Positions 24,558 to 35,682 of a DNA stretch of 64,000 bases are shown here, piece after piece; position 1 is the stretch's first letter, and each line of letters begins with the position of its first letter. The stretch spans positions 9,548,001-9,612,000 of the forward strand of contig NZ_CP084058.1 in the NCBI RefSeq assembly GCF_020215645.1, written 5' to 3'. The notes under the pieces are model-generated. The model searched no databases and had not been told where the DNA came from. It worked only from the letters and a program-made list of their open reading frames with translations. The position numbers and the translations under genes were made by a program. The DNA comes from Nonomuraea gerenzanensis (GTDB taxonomy: Bacteria; Actinomycetota; Actinomycetes; Streptosporangiales; Streptosporangiaceae).

Positions 24558-24679
24558 CCCGCCAGTCCCCGGCCGGACTCCGCTTCCAGGTGCTCCCGCA
24601 GGTGCGCGGCGGCGTGCCGGTCGGCTTCCGAGGTCACCTCCAGGCCGGCCGGCTCGGCCCGTGCCGCGTGGCCGTCCGA

Positions 24680-24714
24680 GGTCCATCGGACCTGTTCTGA
24701 GGGACTTTGGTCCC
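24680..24714 (+). promoter_or_regulatory. Composite DosR/DevR-type element upstream of the nitroreductase
   Basis: The palindrome GGTCCATCGGACC (24680-24692), 8 bases, then GGGACTTTGGTCCC (24701-24714), which matches the DosR/DevR box of the mycobacterial dormancy regulon. The centres are about 21.5 bases apart, two helical turns, like paired DevR boxes. The main box is centred 44.5 bases before the ATG. The same pair with the same spacing, followed in both cases by TGCCTCGG, precedes narG at 35635-35669. Confidence 0.8.
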
Positions 24715-24751
24715 TGCCTCGGACGGGGCGGATCACGAGAATCTTGGCTTC

Positions 24752-25759
24752 ATGTCTGCTGATGTCCCCGTGACCGAGCTAGGCGCGCCGCCGTTCGCGA
24801 CGCGCGCCGGGGTGCGCAGGGCGGTGGGCGCCGCCGTGGCCGCGCCGTCCGTGCACAACACCCAGCCCTGGCGGTTCCGCCGCGTCGACGACGCCACCAT
24901 GGAGCTGTACGCGGACCTCGACCGGTTGCTGATCGTCACGGACCCGATGGGGCGCGGGCTCGGCATCAGCTGCGGGGCCGCACTGTTCAACCTCAGGCTG
25001 GCGCTCCGGATGACCGGCCACGACGCCCGCGTGACGCCCCTGCCCGACCCCGCCGAACGCCCCGACCTGCTGGCCACCGTGCGGGCCGTGCCCGGCGAGC
25101 CGCCACGGGCCGACGAGCGCCTGCTGTACGAGATGATCCCGCACCGGCGCACGAACCGGTTCCCGTTCGACGGGCAGCCGCCCCCGAGGGAGGTCTTCGT
25201 CGAGCTGGTGCACGCCGCCCACACGGAACACGCGACGCTGGTGCCGGTCACGGGCAGGGCCGCGCGGCGGGTGCTCGACCTGGTGGGCGCGGCGGAGAAC
25301 ACGCTGGCCGCCGACGAGTCGTACCAGGCCGAGCTGGCAAGCTGGACCGGCACAGGCGCCTGCTCCGACGGGGTGCCCGAGCACGCCTTCGGCCCCCGCC
25401 CCGCACGCGGTGAGCTGCCCATGCGGGACTTCGCCCCCGGCGCGGCGCGGCCGGGCGCGGCCTTCGAGCCGCGACCGAGGCTGGCGGCCCTGTTCACCCG
25501 GCAGGACGGGCCGCGGGACTGGCTGCGGGCCGGGCAGGCGCTGCAACGCGTGCTGCTCACCGCCACCGCGCACGGCGTGGCGGCGTCGCTGTTCAGCCAG
25601 CCTCTCGACCTGCGTGCGCCGCAGCACCGCGGTGACCGGGTGGGGCCGTTCGGGCATGTGCAGATGCTGGCCAGGTTCGGCTACGGGCCGCCGGTCGGGC
25701 AGGTGCCGCGACGGCCCGTGTCCGAGGTCGTGGAGCTGCGGGAGGGCCGGCGTGGCTGA
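24752..25759 (+). CDS. Acg-family nitroreductase-like protein
   Basis: A 335-residue protein of the Acg (Rv2032) group within the nitroreductase fold. Typical blocks are AAPSVHNTQPWRFR near the N-terminus (flavin-phosphate region), GISCGAALFNLRLAL, HRRTNRFPF and a C-terminal LARFGYG. In mycobacteria these proteins belong to the hypoxia/NO-induced DosR regulon and sequester flavin rather than reducing nitro groups. ATG at 24752 lies just after the DosR-like box. The gene overlaps the nitronate monooxygenase gene by 8 bases. Confidence 0.88.
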   Translation: MSADVPVTELGAPPFATRAGVRRAVGAAVAAPSVHNTQPWRFRRVDDATMELYADLDRLLIVTDPMGRGLGISCGAALFNLRLALRMTGHDARVTPLPDPAERPDLLATVRAVPGEPPRADERLLYEMIPHRRTNRFPFDGQPPPREVFVELVHAAHTEHATLVPVTGRAARRVLDLVGAAENTLAADESYQAELASWTGTGACSDGVPEHAFGPRPARGELPMRDFAPGAARPGAAFEPRPRLAALFTRQDGPRDWLRAGQALQRVLLTATAHGVAASLFSQPLDLRAPQHRGDRVGPFGHVQMLARFGYGPPVGQVPRRPVSEVVELREGRRG

Positions 25760-27176
25760 GTCGGCGGACGCCCGCCCCGTGCTGATCCAGGGGGGCATGG
25801 GGGTGGGCGTGTCCGGGTGGCGGCTGGCGCGGGCCGTCGCCGTGACCGGGCAGCTCGGCGTGGTGTCGGGCACGGCGCTGGACGTCACGCTGGCCAGGCG
25901 GCTGCAGCTCGGCGACCCCGGCGGCCACCTGCGCAGGGCGCTGGCGAGCTTTCCGGTGCCCGAGGTCGCCGAGCGGGTGCTCGCGCGTTACTTCGTGCCC
26001 GGTGGCACGGCCGAGGGGGTGCCGTACCGGCCGGTGCCCAGGCTCGGGCTGCGCGGCAGCCGCGCCGGGGACGAGCTGACCGTGGTCGCCAACTTCGCCG
26101 AGGTGTTCCTGGCCAAGGAGGGGCACCGCGGCCTGGTCGGCGTCAACTACCTGGAGAAGATCCAGCTCGCCACCCCTGCCGCCGTCTACGGCGCGGTGCT
26201 CGCCGGGGTGGACTACGTGCTGATGGGGGCGGGCATCCCGGTGGAGATCCCGCGCCTGCTCGACGACCTGGCCGAGCACCGCCACGGCCGCATCTCGGCC
26301 GCCGTGGCGGACGGCGGCACGGGTGAGCACGCTGAACACACCGTGGGGATCGACCCGGTGGCCCTGTTCGGCCGCCGCCTCCCGCCGCTCCCCCGCCCCC
26401 GGTTCCTGGCGATCGTCTCCTCGCACGTGCTGGCCGCGTACCTGGCCCGCGCACCCCGCACGCGCCCGGACGGCTTCGTGATCGAGACCCCCGTCGCGGG
26501 CGGCCACAGCGCGCCACCGCGCGGCCGTGTGGTGCTCGACGAGGCGGGCGAGCCGGTGTACGGGCCACGTGACGACGCCGACCTGGCCAAAGTGGCCGCG
26601 ACCGGCCTGCCGTTCTGGCTGGCCGGCGGCTACGGCACGCCCGGCGGGCTGGAGCGGGCGCTGGCGGCGGGCGCCGAGGGGATCCAGGTGGGGTCGGCGT
26701 TCGCGCTGTGCCGCGAGTCCGGGCTGGACTCGGTGCTGCGCCGCCGCCTGCGCAGGAGGGCCGGGCTGGTGCGCAACGACCCGCTCGCCTCGCCGACCGG
26801 GTTCCCGTTCAAGGTCGCCGCCGTTCCGGGGACGCTGTCGGAGCAGGACGTGTACGAGGCCAGGCCCCGCCTGTGCGACCTGGGTTACCTGCGGACCCCG
26901 TACGAGAAGGCGGACGGCTCGATCGGTTACCGCTGCGCGGCCGAGCCGGTGGACGTCTACGTGCGCAAGGGCCGCCCGGCGGAGGAGACGGCCGGACGGC
27001 GCTGCCTGTGCAACGGCCTGCTGGCGGCGATCGGGCTGGGCCAGCACCGCCCCGGCGGGTACGCCGAGCCGCCGCTGCTGACGCTGGGCCAGGACACCGG
27101 TTTCCTCGACGGCCTGCCCGACGACCACTCGGCCGCCGACGTCGTGGCCCACATCCTGCTGGGCGCGCACCTGTAG
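25752..27176 (+). CDS. Nitronate monooxygenase-family flavoprotein
   Basis: A 474-residue TIM-barrel FMN protein of the 2-nitropropane dioxygenase/nitronate monooxygenase superfamily. Signature stretches are IQGGMGVGVSGWRLA at the N-terminus, TPVAGGHSAPP (catalytic-His region), AGGYGTPGGLERALAAGAEG and IQVGSAFALCRES. It is longer than typical enzymes (about 350 residues); the extra 100 residues at the C-terminus include cysteines (LCNGLLAAIGLGQHR). GTG at 25752 overlaps the Acg gene, so the two are co-translated under the DosR-like element. It may detoxify nitronates or reactive nitrogen products. Confidence 0.85.
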   Translation: MAESADARPVLIQGGMGVGVSGWRLARAVAVTGQLGVVSGTALDVTLARRLQLGDPGGHLRRALASFPVPEVAERVLARYFVPGGTAEGVPYRPVPRLGLRGSRAGDELTVVANFAEVFLAKEGHRGLVGVNYLEKIQLATPAAVYGAVLAGVDYVLMGAGIPVEIPRLLDDLAEHRHGRISAAVADGGTGEHAEHTVGIDPVALFGRRLPPLPRPRFLAIVSSHVLAAYLARAPRTRPDGFVIETPVAGGHSAPPRGRVVLDEAGEPVYGPRDDADLAKVAATGLPFWLAGGYGTPGGLERALAAGAEGIQVGSAFALCRESGLDSVLRRRLRRRAGLVRNDPLASPTGFPFKVAAVPGTLSEQDVYEARPRLCDLGYLRTPYEKADGSIGYRCAAEPVDVYVRKGRPAEETAGRRCLCNGLLAAIGLGQHRPGGYAEPPLLTLGQDTGFLDGLPDDHSAADVVAHILLGAHL

Positions 27177-27202: not shown

Positions 27203-28006
27203 ATGAAACGCATGAGCGTCGTGCTGGTCTTTGCCGGGTTGCTGAGCCTCGCGATCCAGGGCGGCGCCGTTCACGCGGCGCCCGTGCCCGGCGCCCTCGA
27301 CTCCGTCGTCGCGGCCGTCAAGAAGCAGTTCGCCGAGAAGAGCAGCGTGCGCTTCTCCGTCGCCCGTCGCGGCGGGCCGGAACCCGCCGTGCCGACCCGC
27401 ATCTCCGGCGCCTACCGCTTCAACGCCTCCGGCATGTACTCCGCCGACACCACGGAGATCACCGAGGAGGGAACGGCGACGGGCCGGTACCGGGCGATCA
27501 CCATCGGCCGGGAGTTCTGGTCGCAGGGCTACGTCCGTGCCAGGAACGGCAAGTACCTCTGGAAGTCGCCGTCGAAGGTGGGCGAATGGAGCGCGTGGCA
27601 GAACCTGGCCGGGGTCGTCTGGGGAGATGACCTGATCAACGGGATCAACCCGCACTTCCTCGACCTGGCCGCCTCCTACGACACGGCCAGCGCCGACGGC
27701 GGGACCGTCGAAGGCGTGGCCACGACCCTCCACAGCGGCACGGTGACGGTCTCCGACCTGGGCGAGCGGCAGGCCGGGATCACCTTCGGGACCGAGGAGG
27801 AAGAATACTCGGACAGCGGCCCGATCACCTGGAAGCTCTGGGTGGGCCCGGACCACCTGCCGCGACGTTTCCACGCGGTCATCGCCTTCATCCCGGCGCA
27901 GGGCGGCGACGCCAGGACCATGACGATGAACATCGTCTACCGGAGCTGGGGCAGCCCCGTCACCATCACGCCCCCGCCCGAGCACCGCATCTCCGACGAC
28001 TGGTGA
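27203..28006 (+). CDS. Secreted protein, unknown function
   Basis: A 267-residue protein with a signal peptide ending at about residue 26 (AVHAAPVPG); no lipobox. The mature part appears beta-rich and resembles in outline the LppX/LprG or outer-lipoprotein carrier-like folds (RISGAYRFNASGMYSAD, VWGDDLINGINPHFLDL), but I cannot assign a family. ATG at 27203 has a poor ribosome site. It follows the nitronate monooxygenase by 26 bases, so it may belong to the same DosR-like operon. It converges on the nar operon remnant. Confidence 0.75.
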   Translation: MKRMSVVLVFAGLLSLAIQGGAVHAAPVPGALDSVVAAVKKQFAEKSSVRFSVARRGGPEPAVPTRISGAYRFNASGMYSADTTEITEEGTATGRYRAITIGREFWSQGYVRARNGKYLWKSPSKVGEWSAWQNLAGVVWGDDLINGINPHFLDLAASYDTASADGGTVEGVATTLHSGTVTVSDLGERQAGITFGTEEEEYSDSGPITWKLWVGPDHLPRRFHAVIAFIPAQGGDARTMTMNIVYRSWGSPVTITPPPEHRISDDW

Positions 28007-28010
28007 CCGC

Positions 28011-28316
28011 TCAGCCGGCCGTGGCGGCGGCGCGGCGGACGGCCGCCGCGCGTACCGCGGTGAGCGTCAGGACGAGGGTGATCGCGGCCGTGACCGCCAG
28101 CAACCCCAGCTCGGTGACCGAGCTGGGGTTGTCGGCCGGCGCGACCTGGGCGACCAGGGCCCACCAGCAACGCCTGCTGAGCCGCCGAGAGCCCGAGCAC
28201 CTCCTTCAGCCGGGGGCCGAGCGGGCTGAGCAGCGCCCAGGCCCGGAAGTTCACCGCGAAGCCCAGCGTCGCCAGGCCGAGCATCAGCGGTGGCCGGTGG
28301 GTGAGGTGTTCGTCAT
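28011..28316 (-). pseudogene. narK: Remnant of a NarK-type nitrate/nitrite transporter
   Basis: ATG at 28316 starts MTNTSPTGHR and hits TGA at once; in the next frame, from 28284, the peptide GLATLGFAVNFRAWALLSPL plus LSAAQQALLV matches the N-terminus of NarK/NNP transporters. One missing base (CGCTGATG for CGCTGGATG) explains the first break. Near 28163 the NarK-like frame ends and a third frame, with a membrane-helix-like tail (LAVTAAITLVLTLTAVRAA), runs to TGA at 28011. About 350 residues of the transporter are absent, so an internal deletion has fused N- and C-terminal scraps. It is the last member of the nar operon, coupled by ATGA to the gene at 28313. Confidence 0.75.
28101..28131. terminator. 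Perfect 14-base hairpin in the narK remnant
   Basis: CAACCCCAGCTCGG and CCGAGCTGGGGTTG flank the loop TGA. The stem is very stable and lies between the converging secreted-protein gene (stop 28006) and nar operon, so it could stop transcription from both sides. There is no U-tract. Confidence 0.45.
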
Positions 28317-28699
28317 GTGCCCCTCACAGGGGTCACGAGAGGTGGTGGGGTGGCTCCGCGCGGGATGCCGGTGCCGCCGAGCCGTAGCCTGGTGTGGAAG
28401 TCCTCGACGGCGGCGAGCACGCCGGTGAGGATGCGGGGCGAGTCGCGGGCGGCCAGGGTGCGGTGGTAGGCGCACGCGGTGCGGACGGCCGCCGTCATGT
28501 CGGCCAGCGGCTCCTCCGCCAGCCGCCCGTCCGCCACGGCGGCCGCGATCCAGGCCAGGTACGCGCGCACGCGCCGCAGGTAGACGGCCCTGCTGGAGGG
28601 GGCCAGACGGGAGTGCGCCAGCGCGCCGGCGTAGGCGTGCAACAGCCCGTCGTACGGGGCGGGCAGCTCACCGGCGGCGGCGAGTGGGAGTGGGCGCAT
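28313..28699 (-). CDS. Orphan tyrosine-recombinase core-binding (SAM-like) domain protein
   Basis: A 128-residue protein that looks like only the N-terminal, DNA-arm-binding domain of a tyrosine recombinase: LLHAYAGALAHSRLAPSSRA then VYLRRVRAYLAWI, followed by AYHRTLAARDSPRILTGVLA and AVEDFHTRLRLG. The catalytic domain (RxxxR...HxxR...Y) is absent and no trace follows. ATG at 28699 has GAGGA just upstream, 6 bases after the small membrane ORF; its TGA overlaps the narK ATG (ATGA). It is therefore part of the nar transcription unit. It may be a remnant of a mobile element or a domesticated DNA-binding protein. Confidence 0.7.
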   Translation of the reverse strand: MRPLPLAAAGELPAPYDGLLHAYAGALAHSRLAPSSRAVYLRRVRAYLAWIAAAVADGRLAEEPLADMTAAVRTACAYHRTLAARDSPRILTGVLAAVEDFHTRLRLGGTGIPRGATPPPLVTPVRGT

Positions 28700-28705
28700 C
28701 GGTCC

Positions 28706-28777
28706 TCACCCGGTGGTGGCGAGCAGGGCACCGGCGGCCCCCAGCAGGACCACCGCCGCGCTCCGCACCGCGCTCAT
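28706..28777 (-). CDS. 23-residue single-membrane-span peptide in the nar operon
   Basis: ATG at 28777 overlaps the narI stop (ATGA) and the ORF ends with TGA at 28706. The product, MSAVRSAAVVLLGAAGALLA plus TTG, is a short basic N-terminus followed by one hydrophobic helix. Its tight coupling to narI, and the ribosome site of the next gene placed at its stop, suggest real translation. Tiny membrane subunits of respiratory complexes (for example CydX) are a precedent, but no homology is claimed. Confidence 0.5.
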   Translation of the reverse strand: MSAVRSAAVVLLGAAGALLATTG

Positions 28778-29571
28778 CGCCCGGCCCCCGACCGCCCGGC
28801 GCGGGAGGCCCCGGCCCCCGGACGCCCGAGCCGGGAGGCCCCTGCCCCCGGACGCCCGAGCCGGGAGGCCCCTGCCCCCGGACGCCCGGCGCCCGCGGGC
28901 ACGGCCCGCCGCCGGTAGACGACGTACGGCCGCCACAGGTAGGCGACCGGCGCCGACCAGACGTGCACCAGCCGGGTGAACGGCCAGATGGCGGCCAGCA
29001 GCCAGGCGGACAGCGCGTGCAGCTGGAAGATCAGCGGCACGTCCGCCATCAGCGCGGGATCCGGCCGGAAGGTGAGCACCCCGCGGAACCACACGGCGAT
29101 GGTGGCGCGGTAGTCGTAGCCGCCGCCGAGCAGGTTCTTGCCGATGGTCGCGGACAGGCCGAGGAGGATGACCACGCCGAGCACGGCGAACAGCACCTTG
29201 TCGGCGGTCGTGGTGGTGGTCCGGACGCGGGGGCTGGTGAGGCGGCGGGCCAGCAGCAGGCCGAGCCCGGCGACGACCATCAGCCCGGCCACGGTGCCGG
29301 CGCTCACCGACACGAGATGGTAGAGGTGCTCGTCCACGCCGACCGCCGCGGTCCAGCTCTTCGGCACGAGCAGGCCGAGCACGTGCCCGGCGATGGCGGC
29401 GAACGCACCGAGGTGGAACAGCGGCGACCCGAGCCGCAGCAGCCGGCTCTCCAGCACCTGGGTGGTGCGGGTGGTCCAGCCGAACTGGTTCACGCGCCAG
29501 CGCCAGACGTGTCCCACCACGAAGATCGTCAGAGTGATGTACGGGATCACGACCCAGAGCGCGACGCTCAC
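28774..29571 (-). CDS. narI: Respiratory nitrate reductase gamma subunit (cytochrome b)
   Basis: A 265-residue membrane subunit that takes electrons from menaquinol through two b haems to NarH. Five membrane segments are visible; haem-ligand histidines fit GHVWRWR, LFHLGAFAAIAGHVLG and QLHALSAWLL/RLVHVWSAP. GTG at 29571 overlaps the narJ stop (GTGA). After the usual end (YLWRPYVVYRRR) it carries an extra tail of three 10-residue repeats (GRPGAGASRL), matching a 30-base DNA repeat. Such a tail is not normal for NarI. Confidence 0.93.
   Translation of the reverse strand: MSVALWVVIPYITLTIFVVGHVWRWRVNQFGWTTRTTQVLESRLLRLGSPLFHLGAFAAIAGHVLGLLVPKSWTAAVGVDEHLYHLVSVSAGTVAGLMVVAGLGLLLARRLTSPRVRTTTTTADKVLFAVLGVVILLGLSATIGKNLLGGGYDYRATIAVWFRGVLTFRPDPALMADVPLIFQLHALSAWLLAAIWPFTRLVHVWSAPVAYLWRPYVVYRRRAVPAGAGRPGAGASRLGRPGAGASRLGRPGAGASRAGRSGAGR
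28801..28890. repeat. 30-base tandem repeat, three units, inside narI
   Basis: Units start at 28801, 28831 and 28861, differing by a few bases. They are in frame and code for the GRPGAGASRL-type C-terminal tail of NarI. Confidence 0.9.
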
Positions 29572-30296
29572 GGCCGTACCTCCATTTCGTCGAGCGGCGG
29601 ACCGTACGGCGCCAGGCCGACCTCCTCGGCGGGCGGCCCGGCCAGGGCCAGGTCGGCGACGGCGGCGCGGTCGGCCGCGGACAGCTCGGGCAGCTCGGCG
29701 TGCAGCGCGTCGAGCACCAGCGCGTACGGCGACCCGGCGGAGCGCAGGGCGGAGCGGATGAGCTCCAGCCCCCTGCGGTGCTGGCGCAGCGGCGCCTCGC
29801 CGGTGACGGGCCCCGCCAGGGCGGCGAACTCGCAGACCACCGGCAGGAAGTCGGGCAGCTCGCCCTCGGGCGGGACGAGCCCGGCCACCCGGTAGCGCTG
29901 CTTGAGCGTGAGCAGGGCCATGCCCCGGCGGCGGGTGTCGCCGTGCAGGTAGTAGGTGAGGTAGAGGCTGGACTTGCGGCGCAGGTCGAACGTCTCGACG
30001 TAGGAGCGGGCCAGCGGCATCGGCTCGCACTCGCGGTACCAGGCGGTGAACGCGACCAGCGCGTCCCGGCCCGGCGAGGCGGGCAGCGCGTCGGCGGCGC
30101 GGCACAGCTCGTCCCGGGCGGCCAGCAGGCCGTCGTCGGGGTACTGCAGGAGCAGCGACACCAGCCGCATGAACGCCGCTCTGCCCGCGCCGCGCCCGTC
30201 CGCCCGCTCTCCCGCACGTGCGTCGGCGGCGGGTGGCCGGGCGGCCGACACGACAGCCGGACGGCGGCGATCGGCGCGCCGGAGGCGGAGCTTCAC
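29568..30296 (-). CDS. narJ: Nitrate reductase assembly chaperone (delta subunit)
   Basis: A 242-residue TorD/NarJ-type chaperone that holds NarG while its molybdenum cofactor is inserted. Recognisable blocks are LVSLLLQYPDDGLLAARDEL, ETFDLRRKSSLYLTYYLHGD, RRGMALLTLKQRYR and ELPDFLPVVCEFAAL. GTG at 30296 overlaps the narH stop by GTGA. The first 40 residues are Arg/Ala-rich and look like extra sequence before the conserved domain, so an internal start (ATG near MRLVSLLLQ, about 30170) is possible. Confidence 0.93.
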   Translation of the reverse strand: MKLRLRRADRRRPAVVSAARPPAADARAGERADGRGAGRAAFMRLVSLLLQYPDDGLLAARDELCRAADALPASPGRDALVAFTAWYRECEPMPLARSYVETFDLRRKSSLYLTYYLHGDTRRRGMALLTLKQRYRVAGLVPPEGELPDFLPVVCEFAALAGPVTGEAPLRQHRRGLELIRSALRSAGSPYALVLDALHAELPELSAADRAAVADLALAGPPAEEVGLAPYGPPLDEMEVRP

Positions 30297-31846
30297 GCCG
30301 CACCTCCGTCACGACCGGCGAAGAGCCTGAGCCCGAGACGCCCGTCGGCACGCCTCCCGGTCAGCCCGACCGGCGGGAAGCCCCCCATGCCGGGCCCGCC
30401 CTCTCCGTCGAGGCTGCACCCGTCCACCTGCCCGGCCAGCGCGGCGGCGTCCTCGCGGTGGGCGGCGGGCACGACGTACCGCTCCTCGTACTTGGCGATG
30501 GCCAGCAGCCGGTACATCTCCTCCACGTCGGCCGCCGTCATCCCCACGGCCTCCAGCAGCTCGCCCGGCCGGCTGCCGTCGAGGCTCCTGGCCCGCATGT
30601 ACGCGCGCATGGCCGACAGCTTCATCAGCACCCCGGCCACCACCTCGGTGTCCCCCGCCGAGAACAGGCTCGCCAGGTAGTCGAGAGGGATGCGCAGGTC
30701 GGTGATGGCGTGGAAGACGTTGTCGGGGTCGTCGGCGTCCGCGCCGACGCCGGTGACGGCGTCCAGCACGGGCGACAGCGGCGGGATGTACCAGACCATG
30801 GGCAGCGTCCGGTACTCGGGATGCAGCGGCAGCGCCACCCGGTACTTCATGGCCAGCCGGTAGACGGGCGAGCGGCGGGCGGCGGCGATCCAGTCCTCGC
30901 TGATGCCGGCGGCGCGGGCGGCGGCGATCACGGCCGGGTCGTCGGGGTCGAGGAAGACCTGGCGCTGCGCCTCCAGCAGGTCGCGCGGGTCCTCGACGCG
31001 GGCCGCGCCGAGCACGGCGTCGGCGTCGTACAGGATGAGCCCGAGGTAGCGCAGGCGGCCGACGCAGGTCTCGGCGCACACGGTCGGCTGCCCTGCCTCG
31101 ATGCGCGGGAAGCAGAATGTGCACTTCTCGGCCTTGCCGGTGCGGTGGTTGACGTACACCTTCTTGTACGGGCACGACGACACGCACATGCGCCAGCCCC
31201 GGCACCGGTCCTGGTCCACCAGGACGATGCCGTCCTCCTCCCGCTTGTACATCGCCCCGGACGGGCAGGCGGCCACGCAGGCGGGGTTGAGGCAGTGCTC
31301 GCAGATGCGCGGCAGGTGGAACATGAAGGTCTTGTCGAACTCCAGCTTCACCTTCTCGGCCATCGCGGCCAGGTTCGGGTCGGCGGGGGCGTGCTCGGGG
31401 GCGCCGCCCAGGTCGTCCTCCCAGTTCGCGCCCCAGGTGATGGCCAGGTCCTCGCCGGTGATGGCCGACTTGGGGCGGATCACCGGCGTGTGCGGGCCGG
31501 CGGGGGCGTTGAGCAGGGTGTCGTAGTCGTAGGTGGCCGGCTCGTAGTAGTCGTCCAGGCCGGGCAGGTCGGGGTTGGAGAACAGGTTGACCAGCCGCTT
31601 GATCCGGCCGCCCGCGCGGAGCTTGAGCCGGCCGCGCCGGTCGAGCTGCCAGCCGCCGTGCCAGCGCTCCTGGTCCTCGTAGCGCTTGGGGTAGCCGACG
31701 CCGGGCTTGGTCTCGACGTTGTTGAACCAGACGTACTCCACGCCGTCCCGGTTGGTCCAGGTCTGCTTGCAGGTGACGGAGCAGGTGTGGCAGCCGATGC
31801 ACTTGTCCAGGTTCATCACCATGGCGACCTGTGCCATGACGCGCAT
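30293..31846 (-). CDS. narH: Respiratory nitrate reductase beta subunit (iron-sulphur)
   Basis: A 517-residue electron-transfer subunit between NarI and NarG. Four cysteine clusters are present: CIGCHTCSVTCKQTW; CEHCLNPACVAACPSG; CRGWRMCVSSCPYKK, with Trp in place of the second Cys as in the NarH 3Fe-4S site; and CTFCFPRIEAGQPTVCAETC. ATG at 31846 shares a base with the narG stop (TGATG). The C-terminal 30 residues are Gly/Arg-rich and overlap narJ. Confidence 0.96.
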   Translation of the reverse strand: MRVMAQVAMVMNLDKCIGCHTCSVTCKQTWTNRDGVEYVWFNNVETKPGVGYPKRYEDQERWHGGWQLDRRGRLKLRAGGRIKRLVNLFSNPDLPGLDDYYEPATYDYDTLLNAPAGPHTPVIRPKSAITGEDLAITWGANWEDDLGGAPEHAPADPNLAAMAEKVKLEFDKTFMFHLPRICEHCLNPACVAACPSGAMYKREEDGIVLVDQDRCRGWRMCVSSCPYKKVYVNHRTGKAEKCTFCFPRIEAGQPTVCAETCVGRLRYLGLILYDADAVLGAARVEDPRDLLEAQRQVFLDPDDPAVIAAARAAGISEDWIAAARRSPVYRLAMKYRVALPLHPEYRTLPMVWYIPPLSPVLDAVTGVGADADDPDNVFHAITDLRIPLDYLASLFSAGDTEVVAGVLMKLSAMRAYMRARSLDGSRPGELLEAVGMTAADVEEMYRLLAIAKYEERYVVPAAHREDAAALAGQVDGCSLDGEGGPGMGGFPPVGLTGRRADGRLGLRLFAGRDGGAA

Positions 31847-34800
31847 CAGTAAGTCACCTCCTGGCCGCGGCGGCGGATCACGGTGACCTCGTCCCGCTGG
31901 TTGCCGGTCGGCCCGTAGTAGTTGAAGGCGTAGGTGAGCTGCGCGTACCCGCCGATGAGGTGGCTGGGTTTGAGCAGCAGGCGGGTCAGGGAGTTGTGCA
32001 CGCCGCCGCGCCGGCCCGACCGCTCGGTGAGCGGGACGTTCACGTTGCGGTCCTTGGCGTGGTACATGAACACGGTCCCGGCCGGCATGCGGTGGGAGAC
32101 GACGGCCCTGGCGACGACGACGCCGTTGCGGTTGTACGCCTCGATCCAGTCGTTGTCGGCGACCCCGATGCGGGTGGCGTCCTCGACGCTCATCCAGATC
32201 GTCGGCCCGCCGCGCGACAGCGCCAGCATGTACGCGTTGTCCTGGTACTCGGAGTGGATGGACCACTTGGAGTGCGGGGTCAGGTAGCGGACCGTCACCT
32301 CGGCGGCGCCCCCCTCGCCCTGCTCGCCGTAGTGGCGCGGCAGGTTGAGTGGCGGCCGGTAGGCGGGCAGCTGCTCCCCCAGCTCGATGATCCAGTCGTG
32401 GTCGAGGAAGAAGTGCTGGCGTCCGGTCAGCGTGTGCCACGGCTTGTCGCGCTCGACGTTGATCACGAACGCGGAGTAGCGGCGCCCGCCGGTCTCGGAG
32501 CCCGACCACTCGGGCGAGGTGATCACCGGCTGCGGCCTGGACTGCGTGTCGGCGAACGTGATGCGCTTGCCCTCGTGCTCGGCGGCCAGATCCGCCAGCC
32601 GGGTCCCGGTGCGCCGTTCCAGCGTCTCGAAGCCCTGCGTGGACAGCCGGCCGTTGGTCGTGCCGGACAGCGCGAGGATGGCCTCGCACATGCGGTCGGC
32701 CGTCTCCAGCGAGATCCGGCCCTCGGGGGTGGCGCCGTTCTTGTCGCGCAGGTGCACCAGCTCGGGCCCGACCTGGTAGGTGATGCCCTTGGTGGTCAGC
32801 CCGAGCTTGCCGAACAGCGGCCCGATGCCGCGCATGCGCTCGGCGACCGCCGGGTAGTCGCGCTCGACCGTGACGAGCTTCGGCATCGTCCTGCCGGGGA
32901 TCGGCTCGCACTCGCCGTGCTTCCAGTCGAGCACCCGCCCGCCGGGCTGGGCCAGCTCGTCGGGCGTGTCGTGGGTGAGCGGCACCGCCAGCACGTCCGT
33001 ACGCCTGCCGAGGTGGGTGGCGGCCAGCTTCGAGAAGGCGTCGGCGAGGCCGAGGAAGACGTCGTAGTCGGCGCGGGTCTGCCAGGGTGGCGCGATGGCC
33101 GGGTTGAAGGCGTGCACGAACGGGTGCATGTCGGTGCTGGACAGGTCGTGCTTCTCGTACCAGGTGGCGGCGGGCAGCACGACGTCGGCGAACAGCGCCG
33201 TGGACGTCATCCGGAAGTCGATCGTGGTCAGCAGGTCGAGCTTGCCCTCGGCGGCCTGGTCGCGCCAGGTCACCTCGACCGGGTGGGTGCCCTCCTCGTT
33301 GCGGGTCTCGGCGTCGGCGCCGAGCAGGTGGCGCAGGAAGTACTCGTTGCCCTTGCCGGAGGAGCCGAGCAGGTTGGCCCGCCAGACGGTGAGCACGCGC
33401 GGGAAGTTGGCCGGGTCGCCGGGGTCCTCGGCGGCGAAGCGCAGGCGGCCCGAGGTCAGCTCGTTCACCACGTGCTCGGCGACGGGGACGCCCTTCGCCC
33501 GGGCCTCCTCGGCGAGGTCGAGCGGGTTGCGGTCGAACGTCGGGTGCGACGGCAGCCAGCCCAGCCGGGCGGCCTGGGCGTTGCAGTCGGCGAACGACCG
33601 GCCCTCGAACAGGCCCTCGCCCAGCGGGCTGGCCAGCTCGTCCGCGCCGATCCGCTCGTAGCGCCACTGGTCGGTGGCCAGGTACCAGAACGCGGTGCCG
33701 GCCATGTGCCGGGTCGGCCGCTGCCAGTCGAAGGCGAAGGCCAGGTGCTGGAAGCCGGTGATCGGCCGGACCTTCTCCTGGCCGACGTAGTGCCCCCAGC
33801 CGCCGCCGTTGACGCCCTGGCAGCCGGTCAGCGTGGTCAGCGCCAGGAACGCGCGGTAGATCTGGTCGGAGTGGAACCAGTGGTTGGTGCCGGCGCCCAT
33901 CGCGATCATCGAGCGGCCCTCGGTGACCTCGGCGTTGCGGGCGAACTCGCGGCCGATCCTGGCGATCGTGGCGACCGGCACCGAGGTGATCTCCTCGGCC
34001 CAGGCCGGCGTGTACGGCTGCGCGGCGTCGTCGTAGCCGGTGGGCCACTGCCCGGGCAGCCCGTCGCGCGCCACCCCGTACTGGGCCAGGAGCAGGTCGA
34101 ACACGGTCGTGACGAGCTTGCCGGCCACCTCGGTGACGGGCACGCCGCGCCGCATGACGGAGCCGCCCTCGCTCTGGCCCTCGTCGAACCGCGGCAGGTC
34201 CACCTCGACCGCGCGCCCGCCGAGCGGCGAGTGAGCGGACGCCACGCCGTCCAGGCCGAGTGGCGAGTGAGCGGGCGCCACGCCGTCCAGACCGAGCGGC
34301 GAGTGAGCGGACGCCGCCCCGTCCAGGCCGAGCAGCGTCAGCGCGGGCTCGGCGCCGTCCAGGTCGAGGTTCCAGCGGCCCTCGCCCTCCTGGCCCCAGC
34401 GGAAGCCCAGCGAGCCGTTCGGCACCACGGGCGCGCCACTGGCCGCGTCCAGGAAGACGGTCTTGAACTGCGCGTTCTCGCTCTCCTCGCCGAGGTCGGC
34501 GGCGGTCACGAAGCGGCGCGGGACGTAGGCGTCGCCGCGCGGCTCCAGCGTGACCAGGAACGGCAGGTCCGTATATTTCCGTACGTAGTCGGTGAAGTAG
34601 GGGACCTGGCGGTCGCGGAAGAACTCCGACAGCACCACGTGCCCCATCGCCATGGCCAGCGCGCCGTCGGTGCCCGGATGCGGGGACAGCCAGTCGTCGG
34701 CGAACTTGACGTTGTCGGCGTAGTCGGGGCTGACCGCGACGACCTTGGTGCCCTGGTAGCGGGCCTCGGTCATGAAGTGGGCGTCCGGCGTCCTGGTGAC

Positions 34801-35598
34801 CGGGATGTTGGAGCCCCACATGATCAGGTAGCGGGAGTTCCACCAGTCGGCGGCCTCGGGCACGTCCGTCTGGTCGCCCCAGACCTGCGGCGAGGCGATC
34901 GGCAGGTCGGCGTACCAGTCGTAGAAGGACAGCAGCGTGCCGCCGATCATCGACAGGAAGCGGGTGCCGGCCGCGAACGAGGCCATCGACATGGCCGGGA
35001 TGGGGGAGAAGCCGACGACCCGGTCGGGCCCGTACCGCTTGATGGTGTGCACGTGGGCGGCGGCCATCAGCTCCAGGACCTCCTCCCAGCTCGACCGCAC
35101 GAACCCGCCCTTGCCGCGCGCCCGCTTGTAGGCCCGCGCACGCTCCGGGTCGCCGGTCAGCTCCGCCCAGGCCAGCACGGGGTCGCCCAGCCGGTCGCGC
35201 GCCTCCCGCCACATCTCCAGCAGCACCCCGCGCACGTACGGGTAACGCACGCGCGACGGCGAGTAGGTGTACCAGGAGAACGAGGCGCCACGGGGGCAGC
35301 CGCGCGGCTCGTACTCGGGCGATCCCGGCCCCACCGACGGGTAGTCGGTGGCCTGGTGCTCCCAGGTGATCAGGCCGTCCTTGACGAAGACCTGCCACGA
35401 GCACGAGCCCGTGCAGTTCACCCCGTGGGTCGAGCGCACGACCTTGTCGTGCGCCCACCGGTCCCGGTAGAAGCGGTCCCACGCTCCCGGGTCGATCTGG
35501 TGCAGGGTACGGCCGTCGGCGGACACCTCCGCCCTGGTGAAGAACTTCCTGGCGGCAAGCAACGGCCCCATCCCGGGCACCGCGTCGATATCACTCAC
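31846..35598 (-). CDS. narG: Respiratory nitrate reductase alpha subunit (molybdenum catalytic)
   Basis: A 1250-residue Mo-bisMGD enzyme that reduces nitrate to nitrite on the inner face of the membrane. The N-terminal FS0 cluster motif is HGVNCTGSCSW (His58, Cys62, Cys66), then EPRGCPRGASFSWYTYSPSR. GTG at 35598 has GAGG ten bases upstream. At about residues 420-460 there is an insertion with three 12-residue repeats (LGLDGVASAHSP type) coded by a 36-base tandem repeat. It heads the operon narG-H-J-I-peptide-recombinase domain-narK remnant. A DosR-like double box lies 37-71 bases upstream. Confidence 0.97.
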   Translation of the reverse strand: MSDIDAVPGMGPLLAARKFFTRAEVSADGRTLHQIDPGAWDRFYRDRWAHDKVVRSTHGVNCTGSCSWQVFVKDGLITWEHQATDYPSVGPGSPEYEPRGCPRGASFSWYTYSPSRVRYPYVRGVLLEMWREARDRLGDPVLAWAELTGDPERARAYKRARGKGGFVRSSWEEVLELMAAAHVHTIKRYGPDRVVGFSPIPAMSMASFAAGTRFLSMIGGTLLSFYDWYADLPIASPQVWGDQTDVPEAADWWNSRYLIMWGSNIPVTRTPDAHFMTEARYQGTKVVAVSPDYADNVKFADDWLSPHPGTDGALAMAMGHVVLSEFFRDRQVPYFTDYVRKYTDLPFLVTLEPRGDAYVPRRFVTAADLGEESENAQFKTVFLDAASGAPVVPNGSLGFRWGQEGEGRWNLDLDGAEPALTLLGLDGAASAHSPLGLDGVAPAHSPLGLDGVASAHSPLGGRAVEVDLPRFDEGQSEGGSVMRRGVPVTEVAGKLVTTVFDLLLAQYGVARDGLPGQWPTGYDDAAQPYTPAWAEEITSVPVATIARIGREFARNAEVTEGRSMIAMGAGTNHWFHSDQIYRAFLALTTLTGCQGVNGGGWGHYVGQEKVRPITGFQHLAFAFDWQRPTRHMAGTAFWYLATDQWRYERIGADELASPLGEGLFEGRSFADCNAQAARLGWLPSHPTFDRNPLDLAEEARAKGVPVAEHVVNELTSGRLRFAAEDPGDPANFPRVLTVWRANLLGSSGKGNEYFLRHLLGADAETRNEEGTHPVEVTWRDQAAEGKLDLLTTIDFRMTSTALFADVVLPAATWYEKHDLSSTDMHPFVHAFNPAIAPPWQTRADYDVFLGLADAFSKLAATHLGRRTDVLAVPLTHDTPDELAQPGGRVLDWKHGECEPIPGRTMPKLVTVERDYPAVAERMRGIGPLFGKLGLTTKGITYQVGPELVHLRDKNGATPEGRISLETADRMCEAILALSGTTNGRLSTQGFETLERRTGTRLADLAAEHEGKRITFADTQSRPQPVITSPEWSGSETGGRRYSAFVINVERDKPWHTLTGRQHFFLDHDWIIELGEQLPAYRPPLNLPRHYGEQGEGGAAEVTVRYLTPHSKWSIHSEYQDNAYMLALSRGGPTIWMSVEDATRIGVADNDWIEAYNRNGVVVARAVVSHRMPAGTVFMYHAKDRNVNVPLTERSGRRGGVHNSLTRLLLKPSHLIGGYAQLTYAFNYYGPTGNQRDEVTVIRRRGQEVTY
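34221..34328. repeat. 36-base in-frame tandem repeat, three units, inside narG
   Basis: Units start at 34221, 34257 and 34293 (CGAGCGGCGAGTGAGCGGAC and variants). They code for three copies of a 12-residue, mildly acidic loop sequence in NarG. Confidence 0.9.
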
Positions 35599-35634
35599 GT
35601 GCTCAGCCTCGTGGCTGCCGTCCGGCCCGAGGCA

Positions 35635-35669
35635 GGGACCAAAGTCCCCAGTGAGGGGTCCGATGGACC
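35635..35669 (-). promoter_or_regulatory. Composite DosR/DevR-type element upstream of narG
   Basis: Read on the minus strand: GGTCCATCGGACC, 8 bases, then GGGACTTTGGTCCC, followed by TGCCTCGG. It is base-for-base the same pair and spacing as at 24680-24714; only the 8 spacer bases differ (CCTCACTG against TGTTCTGA). The main box is centred 43.5 bases before the narG GTG, which would put a transcription start close to the start codon if the usual -42.5 geometry applies. Confidence 0.8.
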
Positions 35670-35682
35670 CCTCAGGGAGGGC

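Follow-up and report, generated by a model that had tools for sequence, protein, structure and literature searches.

A probable two-box DevR/DosR-type promoter shared by acg and narGHJI in Nonomuraea gerenzanensis, with predicted leaderless starts

In the window, i.e., the whole stretch of 64,000 nucleotides of Nonomuraea gerenzanensis DNA that was analysed, an acg gene and the narGHJI genes are preceded by the same two palindromes in the same arrangement. The question raised by this locus is which regulator reads these sites and what kind of promoter they form. Each composite consists of GGTCCATCGGACC, 8 bases, GGGACTTTGGTCCC and TGCCTCGG, and was read directly in the window at 24680-24722 (plus strand) and 35669-35627 (minus strand). 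The two composites differ solely in the 8 spacer bases (TGTTCTGA and CCTCACTG), both palindromes being identical. The centre of the second box lies 44.5 bases before the ATG of acg (24752) and 43.5 bases before the GTG of narG (35598). On rereading, the sequence, positions, identical palindromes and identical spacing reported by the first-pass annotation were correct base for base, and its distances from the box centres to the start codons were recovered unchanged. The boxes and the genes behind them are the following.

24679-24692, plus strand: secondary (S) DevR-type box of the acg promoter, a 14-mer in the -22 register (palindrome proper, 24680-24692)
24701-24714, plus strand: primary (P) DevR/DosR box of the acg promoter, GGGACTTTGGTCCC, which together with the T on its 3' side fits GGGACTTNNGNCCCT
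24752-25759, plus strand: acg, Acg-family FMN-binding oxidoreductase, predicted to be leaderless (NCBIfam NF047509, 307 bits, cut-off 199; Pfam Nitroreductase)
25776-27176, plus strand: nitronate monooxygenase-type gene downstream of acg, start codon provisional (match to Pfam PF03060 at E 2e-12, covering residues 228-325 of the translation)
35657-35670, minus strand: secondary (S) DevR-type box of the narG promoter, a 14-mer in the -22 register (palindrome proper, 35657-35669)
35635-35648, minus strand: primary (P) DevR/DosR box of the narG promoter
31846-35598, minus strand: narG, respiratory nitrate reductase alpha subunit, predicted to be leaderless (TIGR01580, 1630 bits, cut-off 1084)
30293-31849, minus strand: narH, beta subunit (TIGR01660, 769 bits, cut-off 524)
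29568-30296, minus strand: narJ, delta subunit (PF02613, E 2.9e-12)
28774-29571, minus strand: narI, gamma subunit (PF02665, E 2e-86)

With up to three mismatches allowed, the composite was found twice in the window and never in 100 dinucleotide shuffles of it. In the whole genome (12,066,052 bases), the same threshold returned two matches, both exact, compared to none for the reversed control pattern. The first-pass annotation had proposed such a genome-wide scan, and the composite turns out to occupy only these two places and is not scattered. Neither half is strong evidence by itself, and the finding therefore rests on the composite. At up to two mismatches genome-wide, the left palindrome alone gave 328 sites compared to 561 for the reversed control, i.e., no enrichment, and the main (P) box alone gave 46 sites compared to 34, a modest excess. 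The single-palindrome scan was dropped as evidence because the left palindrome alone fell below its control. Ten of the 46 main-box sites lie inside 81 kb (5.409-5.490 Mb), and other groups are found at 4.97, 6.82 and 9.82-9.84 Mb.

At both places, GGGACTTTGGTCCCT fits GGGACTTNNGNCCCT, the strong mycobacterial DosR consensus (PMC6448022). The second palindrome is thus a full DosR box, as the first-pass annotation had claimed. The left palindrome had been guessed to be a secondary box about two turns away. To place it, we used a register matrix built from the genome's own boxes, in which each box was left out of its own matrix and the two window promoters stood outside the set. Upstream of 24 other boxes, a second DosR-like site was observed at offset -22, with a mean score of -3.9, compared to -13.6 for the next best offset and a median of -19.9; no shuffle and no rotation, out of 1000 each, matched this signal. 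It should be noted that the 24 boxes were selected, and their orientation decided, by eye among 71 intergenic box orientations, in 11 stretches chosen for box clustering, and that the second orientation of the same box, boxes judged to be without a gene in reach, and box 5484916, near the end of its stretch, were excluded. The -22 offset also stands out in a larger set of 27 orientations (z 8.6), in which a weaker peak appears at +22 (z 4.0). The left palindromes of the window score 3.7 (acg) and 5.6 (narG) at -22, and -2.1 (acg) and -0.1 (narG) at -21. The -21 register, suggested by the dyad of the left palindrome, was rejected because -22 scores better and the second site of other boxes is found there. 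Since it scores positively at the offset where other boxes have their second site, the left palindrome is, as far as its sequence goes, best read as a secondary DevR box located 22 bp, or about two turns, centre to centre from the primary one, and the recurring register supports the earlier guess.

An unlikely alternative is that the P box alone binds DevR, and that another regulator, related to nitrate or NO, occupies the left palindrome, with acg and nar integrating two signals. The S box does depart from the P-box sequence in several places, and its dyad, GGTCC-ATC-GGACC, is odd-centred, unlike the even-centred DosR box. Its conservation at acg and nar also exceeds that of the degenerate second sites of other DevR boxes, and its ATCGG core is nearly fixed, each base being present in 35-39 of 40 promoters (16 acg and 16 narG orthologues, and 8 selected composites). 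However, several orthologues have a right half that does not complete the dyad (GGACG, GGAGG), contrary to what is expected of a site for a symmetric dimer; the palindrome alone is not enriched in the genome; and it stands, with a positive DosR matrix score, in the same -22 register in which a DosR-like site recurs at the 24 other boxes. These observations favour a secondary DevR box.

The genome encodes two DevR-like regulators, 100% alike over 212 amino acids and located 1.06 Mb apart; the pair represents a recent duplication or conversion of the regulator.

5412401-5413039 and 6468042-6468677 of the genome: the two devR copies

Their best PDB match is DevR 3c3w (E 5e-80), followed at a distance by VraR (8e-44) and NarL (2e-31). 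Asp54 and the MFLAEKTVKN stretch, which includes Lys179, Lys182 and Asn183, are identical to those of 3c3w. Lys179 and Asn183 are, we assume, DNA-contacting residues of DevR. Asp54 has been named as the phosphoacceptor of DevR (PMC3029386), and K182 is named in PMC5999986. Two DevS/DosT-like kinases with GAF, HisKA_3 and HATPase domains are encoded as well; DevS is the best match of the GAF domain (E 2e-52), and the two kinases are 85% identical to each other. The HPPM stretch of the DevS GAF domain, which presumably holds the haem histidine, is kept in the kinase alignment. The kinase genes are not adjacent to devR, and the kinases would act on the genome's own DevR. Both the DevR homologue and the DevRS-type pair for which the first-pass annotation had advised a search are therefore present, each in two copies.

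DosR-type boxes stand in front of both devR starts. Further boxes precede genes for two Usp proteins, a WS/DGAT, a CBS-BON protein, a pyruvate formate lyase-like enzyme, a PNPOx-like protein and two more nitroreductase-type proteins. We take this gene company (Usp, nitroreductase-type and others) to be that expected of a DevR regulon. Part of it matches the company reported in PMC5069765.

The composite is conserved in the genus Nonomuraea. Orthologue counts were made on 30 acg and 30 narG loci, a subset of all matches found. Among acg loci with at least 71% identity, the composite (up to five mismatches) was present at 16 of 17, compared to 0 of 13 for more distant acg. For narG with at least 93% identity, the P box (up to two mismatches) was present at 16 of 16 loci and the composite (up to three mismatches) at 13 of 16; the remaining three close orthologues keep the P box and have no S box of this kind. 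None of the 14 other narG loci carried the composite at up to five mismatches. Among the 13 distant acg loci, three (L125, L127, L134) have a single P box at up to two mismatches, as does one (L160) of the 14 remaining narG loci. When the palindrome centres were left free, 57 matches with up to two mismatches were found in 34 of 54 genomes of the genus, compared to 10 matches for the reversed control. An exact scan for GGNCCATCGGNCN10GGACTTTNGTCCC in one genome per species, covering 84,980 species, returned 26 stretches, 24 in Nonomuraea and 2 in Streptosporangium; [Actinomadura] parvosata is counted among the 24, on our assumption that it belongs to Nonomuraea.

The strict composite occurs in 26 of the 41 genomes with a devR match, compared to 1 of the 13 without one (Fisher p 0.0009, a value that ignores kinship and depends on the E-value threshold). 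Here, a genome without devR is one with no match at E<=1e-80 among the 56 candidates scored per genome, and one of the 13, G032, is only 63% complete. In the comparison of the 40 promoters and devR, each genome is represented by one composite match (two for G008 and G020), and further composites of the same genomes were left out. In G025, G045 and G047, devR adjoins narG divergently, at a distance of 0.16-0.7 kb.

The reader of both boxes is very probably the organism's own version of DevR/DosR. That the boxes are real and are read mainly by another NarL-family regulator, rather than by the two DevR orthologues, is very unlikely. The genome does contain 49 matches to DevR at E<=1e-30, i.e., many possible readers; however, the 47 matches besides the two DevR copies are all at most 43% identical, boxes stand in front of both devR genes, and the composite tracks devR across the genus. 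Moreover, S. coelicolor OsdR recognises DevR targets from M. tuberculosis (PMC5069765).

Among the nearest relatives, acg promoters have the spacer tgttctga, and narG promoters have cctcacta or tctcacta. Since the spacers are alike for each gene and different between the two genes, the identity of the boxes points to a long-standing constraint and not to a recent copy. That one promoter was recently duplicated or copied by gene conversion, without regulatory meaning, is thus barely credible: identical palindromes only 10.9 kb apart, and a leader sequence common to the acg and narG promoters in relatives that suggests a shared cassette origin, would fit it, whereas the spacers indicate that both promoters are old and separately inherited, with unchanged boxes.

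In three relatives, the composite is apparently not followed by an intact gene of the expected kind. In G007 (L046), which has no devR match at the threshold, only the first 18 narG residues match behind the composite, and this remnant may be a relic or an assembly gap. In G027 (L061), only a short acg remnant follows, before a nitronate monooxygenase-like frame, and the gene has apparently decayed. In G044 (L071), the composite is followed by a frame that begins MSDAD and then, judged by eye, resembles the small gene located 3' of narI (window 28313-28699, minus strand), as if narGHJI had been lost between the promoter and the small gene.

The bases between the P box and the start codon contain the predicted core promoter.

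24715-24718, plus strand: TGCC immediately 3' of the acg P box, where the -35 element of the predicted promoter would lie
24740-24745, plus strand: predicted -10 element AATCTT of acg (A-11 and T-7 relative to the ATG)
35631-35634, minus strand: TGCC after the narG P box, at the -35 position
35605-35610, minus strand: predicted -10 element GAGGCT of narG (A-11 and T-7 relative to the GTG)

Each base of the TGCC is present in 36-40 of the 40 promoters. In 35 of the 40, a start codon lies 30-43 bases beyond the box, and relative to it A-11 is present in 30 and T-7 in 31 of the 35; start codons were taken too early for L061, L109, L140 and L150, and these counts are lowered as a result. A-11 and T-7 are the most important bases of the -10 hexamer. 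The pattern of a box, TGC and an ATG 35-37 bases after the box gave 36 matches in 21 of 54 genomes, compared to 0 for the reversed control. At acg and narG, the putative -10 element lies 7-12 bases before the start codon, the distance by which a leaderless mRNA was recognised. Both sites also appear to have the structure by which promoters of the regulon were recognised, i.e., two or more boxes, the proximal one overlapping the -35 region. The placement of A-11 and T-7 and the spacing of the ATG point to a transcription start on the start codon or immediately beside it, and such a start would place the P box at about -50 to -37. Judged from sequence, the acg and narG mRNAs are probably leaderless.

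Other genes open their frame 36-37 bases after an ACTTT-type box at L093, L097, L104 and L193, in relatives and in the window genome; one of them, in the window genome, is PNPOx-like by Pfam. These cases hint at leaderless starts elsewhere in the regulon.

We consider it highly likely that each site is a two-box promoter activated by DevR/DosR, with the P and S boxes bound cooperatively, and that it yields leaderless acg and narGHJI mRNAs. We infer the following course of events. Low oxygen or NO would cause the DevS/DosT-like GAF kinases to phosphorylate DevR, supplied by its two near-identical copies. DevR would then occupy the strong P box (about -50 to -37), which adjoins and overlaps the -35 region; the weaker S box, 22 bp further upstream and on the same helical face, would be bound cooperatively with it. 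Bound in this way, it would recruit RNA polymerase to a poor core promoter, with TGCC at -35 and a -10 element defined by A-11 and T-7. The acg and narGHJI mRNAs would begin on the start codon or beside it and hence be leaderless.

The relatives differ in what follows the start codon. In 27 of 51 promoters, an ORF opens at that start codon and its stop overlaps the ATG or GTG of a longer frame. Twenty-three of these upstream ORFs are exactly 12 codons long, one has 9 codons, and three have 43-64 codons; the last three are probably not of the overlapping-leader kind. The acg of the window begins MSADVP-VTE, and the leader of relatives begins MSAVTPVPG, so that the first six acg codons look like a shortened leader fused to the gene. 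The window narG is predicted to begin directly at +1. We found no purifying selection on the 12-codon peptide in the 16 acg-type ORFs among the 23 (the 7 narG-type ORFs being left out), with pN/pS 0.99 in frame compared to 0.80 and 0.73 for the two alternative frames. This value does not support a functional leader peptide, and the ORF, if it matters, should act by its frame and position and not by its product. The overlap between ORF and gene may reflect conserved spacing of the gene's own ribosome site. A broader and tentative proposal, which we think is more doubtful than the two-box reading itself, is that Nonomuraea and Streptosporangium share a portable DevR hypoxia cassette, made up of the S box, the P box, the -10 element and a start codon placed at +1, which in many cases opens a leaderless ORF of 12 codons whose stop overlaps the beginning of the gene. 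Leaderless initiation might then feed the translation of Acg and nitrate reductase under oxygen starvation, and the species of the window would have the leader fused to acg and narG placed directly at +1.

The closest known system is the OsdR/OsdK regulon of S. coelicolor, in which predicted OsdR boxes are listed at the nitroreductase gene SCO0215 (-99) and at narG2, SCO0216 (-53) (PMC5069765, Table 1), and the Nar2 genes are down at 36 h in the osdR mutant (PMC5069765). As in the window system, a DevR orthologue outside mycobacteria is combined with boxes at nitroreductase and narG genes and with Usp genes. The S. coelicolor consensus is AGGGCCGATCGGCCCT, whereas the window box is ACTTTG-centred and has a near-fixed S box 22 bp upstream, and the phrases "two binding sites" and "leaderless" do not occur in the available text of PMC5069765. 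The first-pass annotation had tied nitrate respiration, flavin sequestration and nitronate oxidation into one hypoxia/NO response outside mycobacteria. As a prediction, this response withstood the two checks made by computation, for DevR homologues are encoded and the composite is not scattered; its occurrence outside mycobacteria is not new, since in S. coelicolor a nitroreductase gene and narG2 are already connected through OsdR (PMC5069765).

For DevR of M. tuberculosis, it is established that promoters have P and S boxes, that these are bound cooperatively and that the proximal box overlaps -35; the Acg-family gene Rv3131 is among its targets (PMC3029386). The window promoters share the two boxes, the predicted overlap of the proximal box with -35 and the Acg-family target with that system, as far as it is described in the cited text. 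They differ from it in that the same composite precedes narGHJI and that the start codon coincides with the predicted transcription start. Leaderless transcripts starting at ATG or GTG, including those of leaderless small ORFs, are common in mycobacteria (PMC6448022, PMC8022548). Compared to these accounts, the leaderless starts proposed here are predicted and tied to one DevR-type cassette, and in relatives a 12-codon ORF overlaps the gene start.

We found no description of the two-box Nonomuraea composite, its use in common by acg and narGHJI, the leaderless start predicted here or the variation in the upstream ORF in the open-licence literature, and a search of titles and abstract beginnings in open-licence papers on Nonomuraea and DosR returned nothing on such promoters. 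The kind of regulator is thus known, and the exact promoter layout looks new. The results would add a further large genus of actinomycetes to those with the dormancy regulon, through a promoter that is clearly delimited and directly testable, and would make nitrate respiration and Acg a conserved pair under a DevR-type promoter. The fused, direct and upstream-ORF versions of the same promoter in sister species offer a natural case for the study of leaderless translation in hypoxia.

Two minor observations concern NarK-like genes. A similar promoter is found elsewhere in the window genome, from 4975900 onward (L038:9901-11203), with the upstream site GGCCCATCGGAGG, the box GGGACTTCGGTCCC and an ATG 35 bases after the box; it lacks an obvious -10 element, and the score of its upstream site is low, at -7.7. 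It precedes an MFS gene that is closest to NarK (TIGR00886, 199 bits, below the cut-off of 311.7). In the window itself, a short frame at 27937-28284 (minus strand), between the acg and nar operons, looks like the beginning of a transporter of the NarK type (TIGR00886, E 0.0027, with a score well short of the cut-off) and is possibly a decayed narK.
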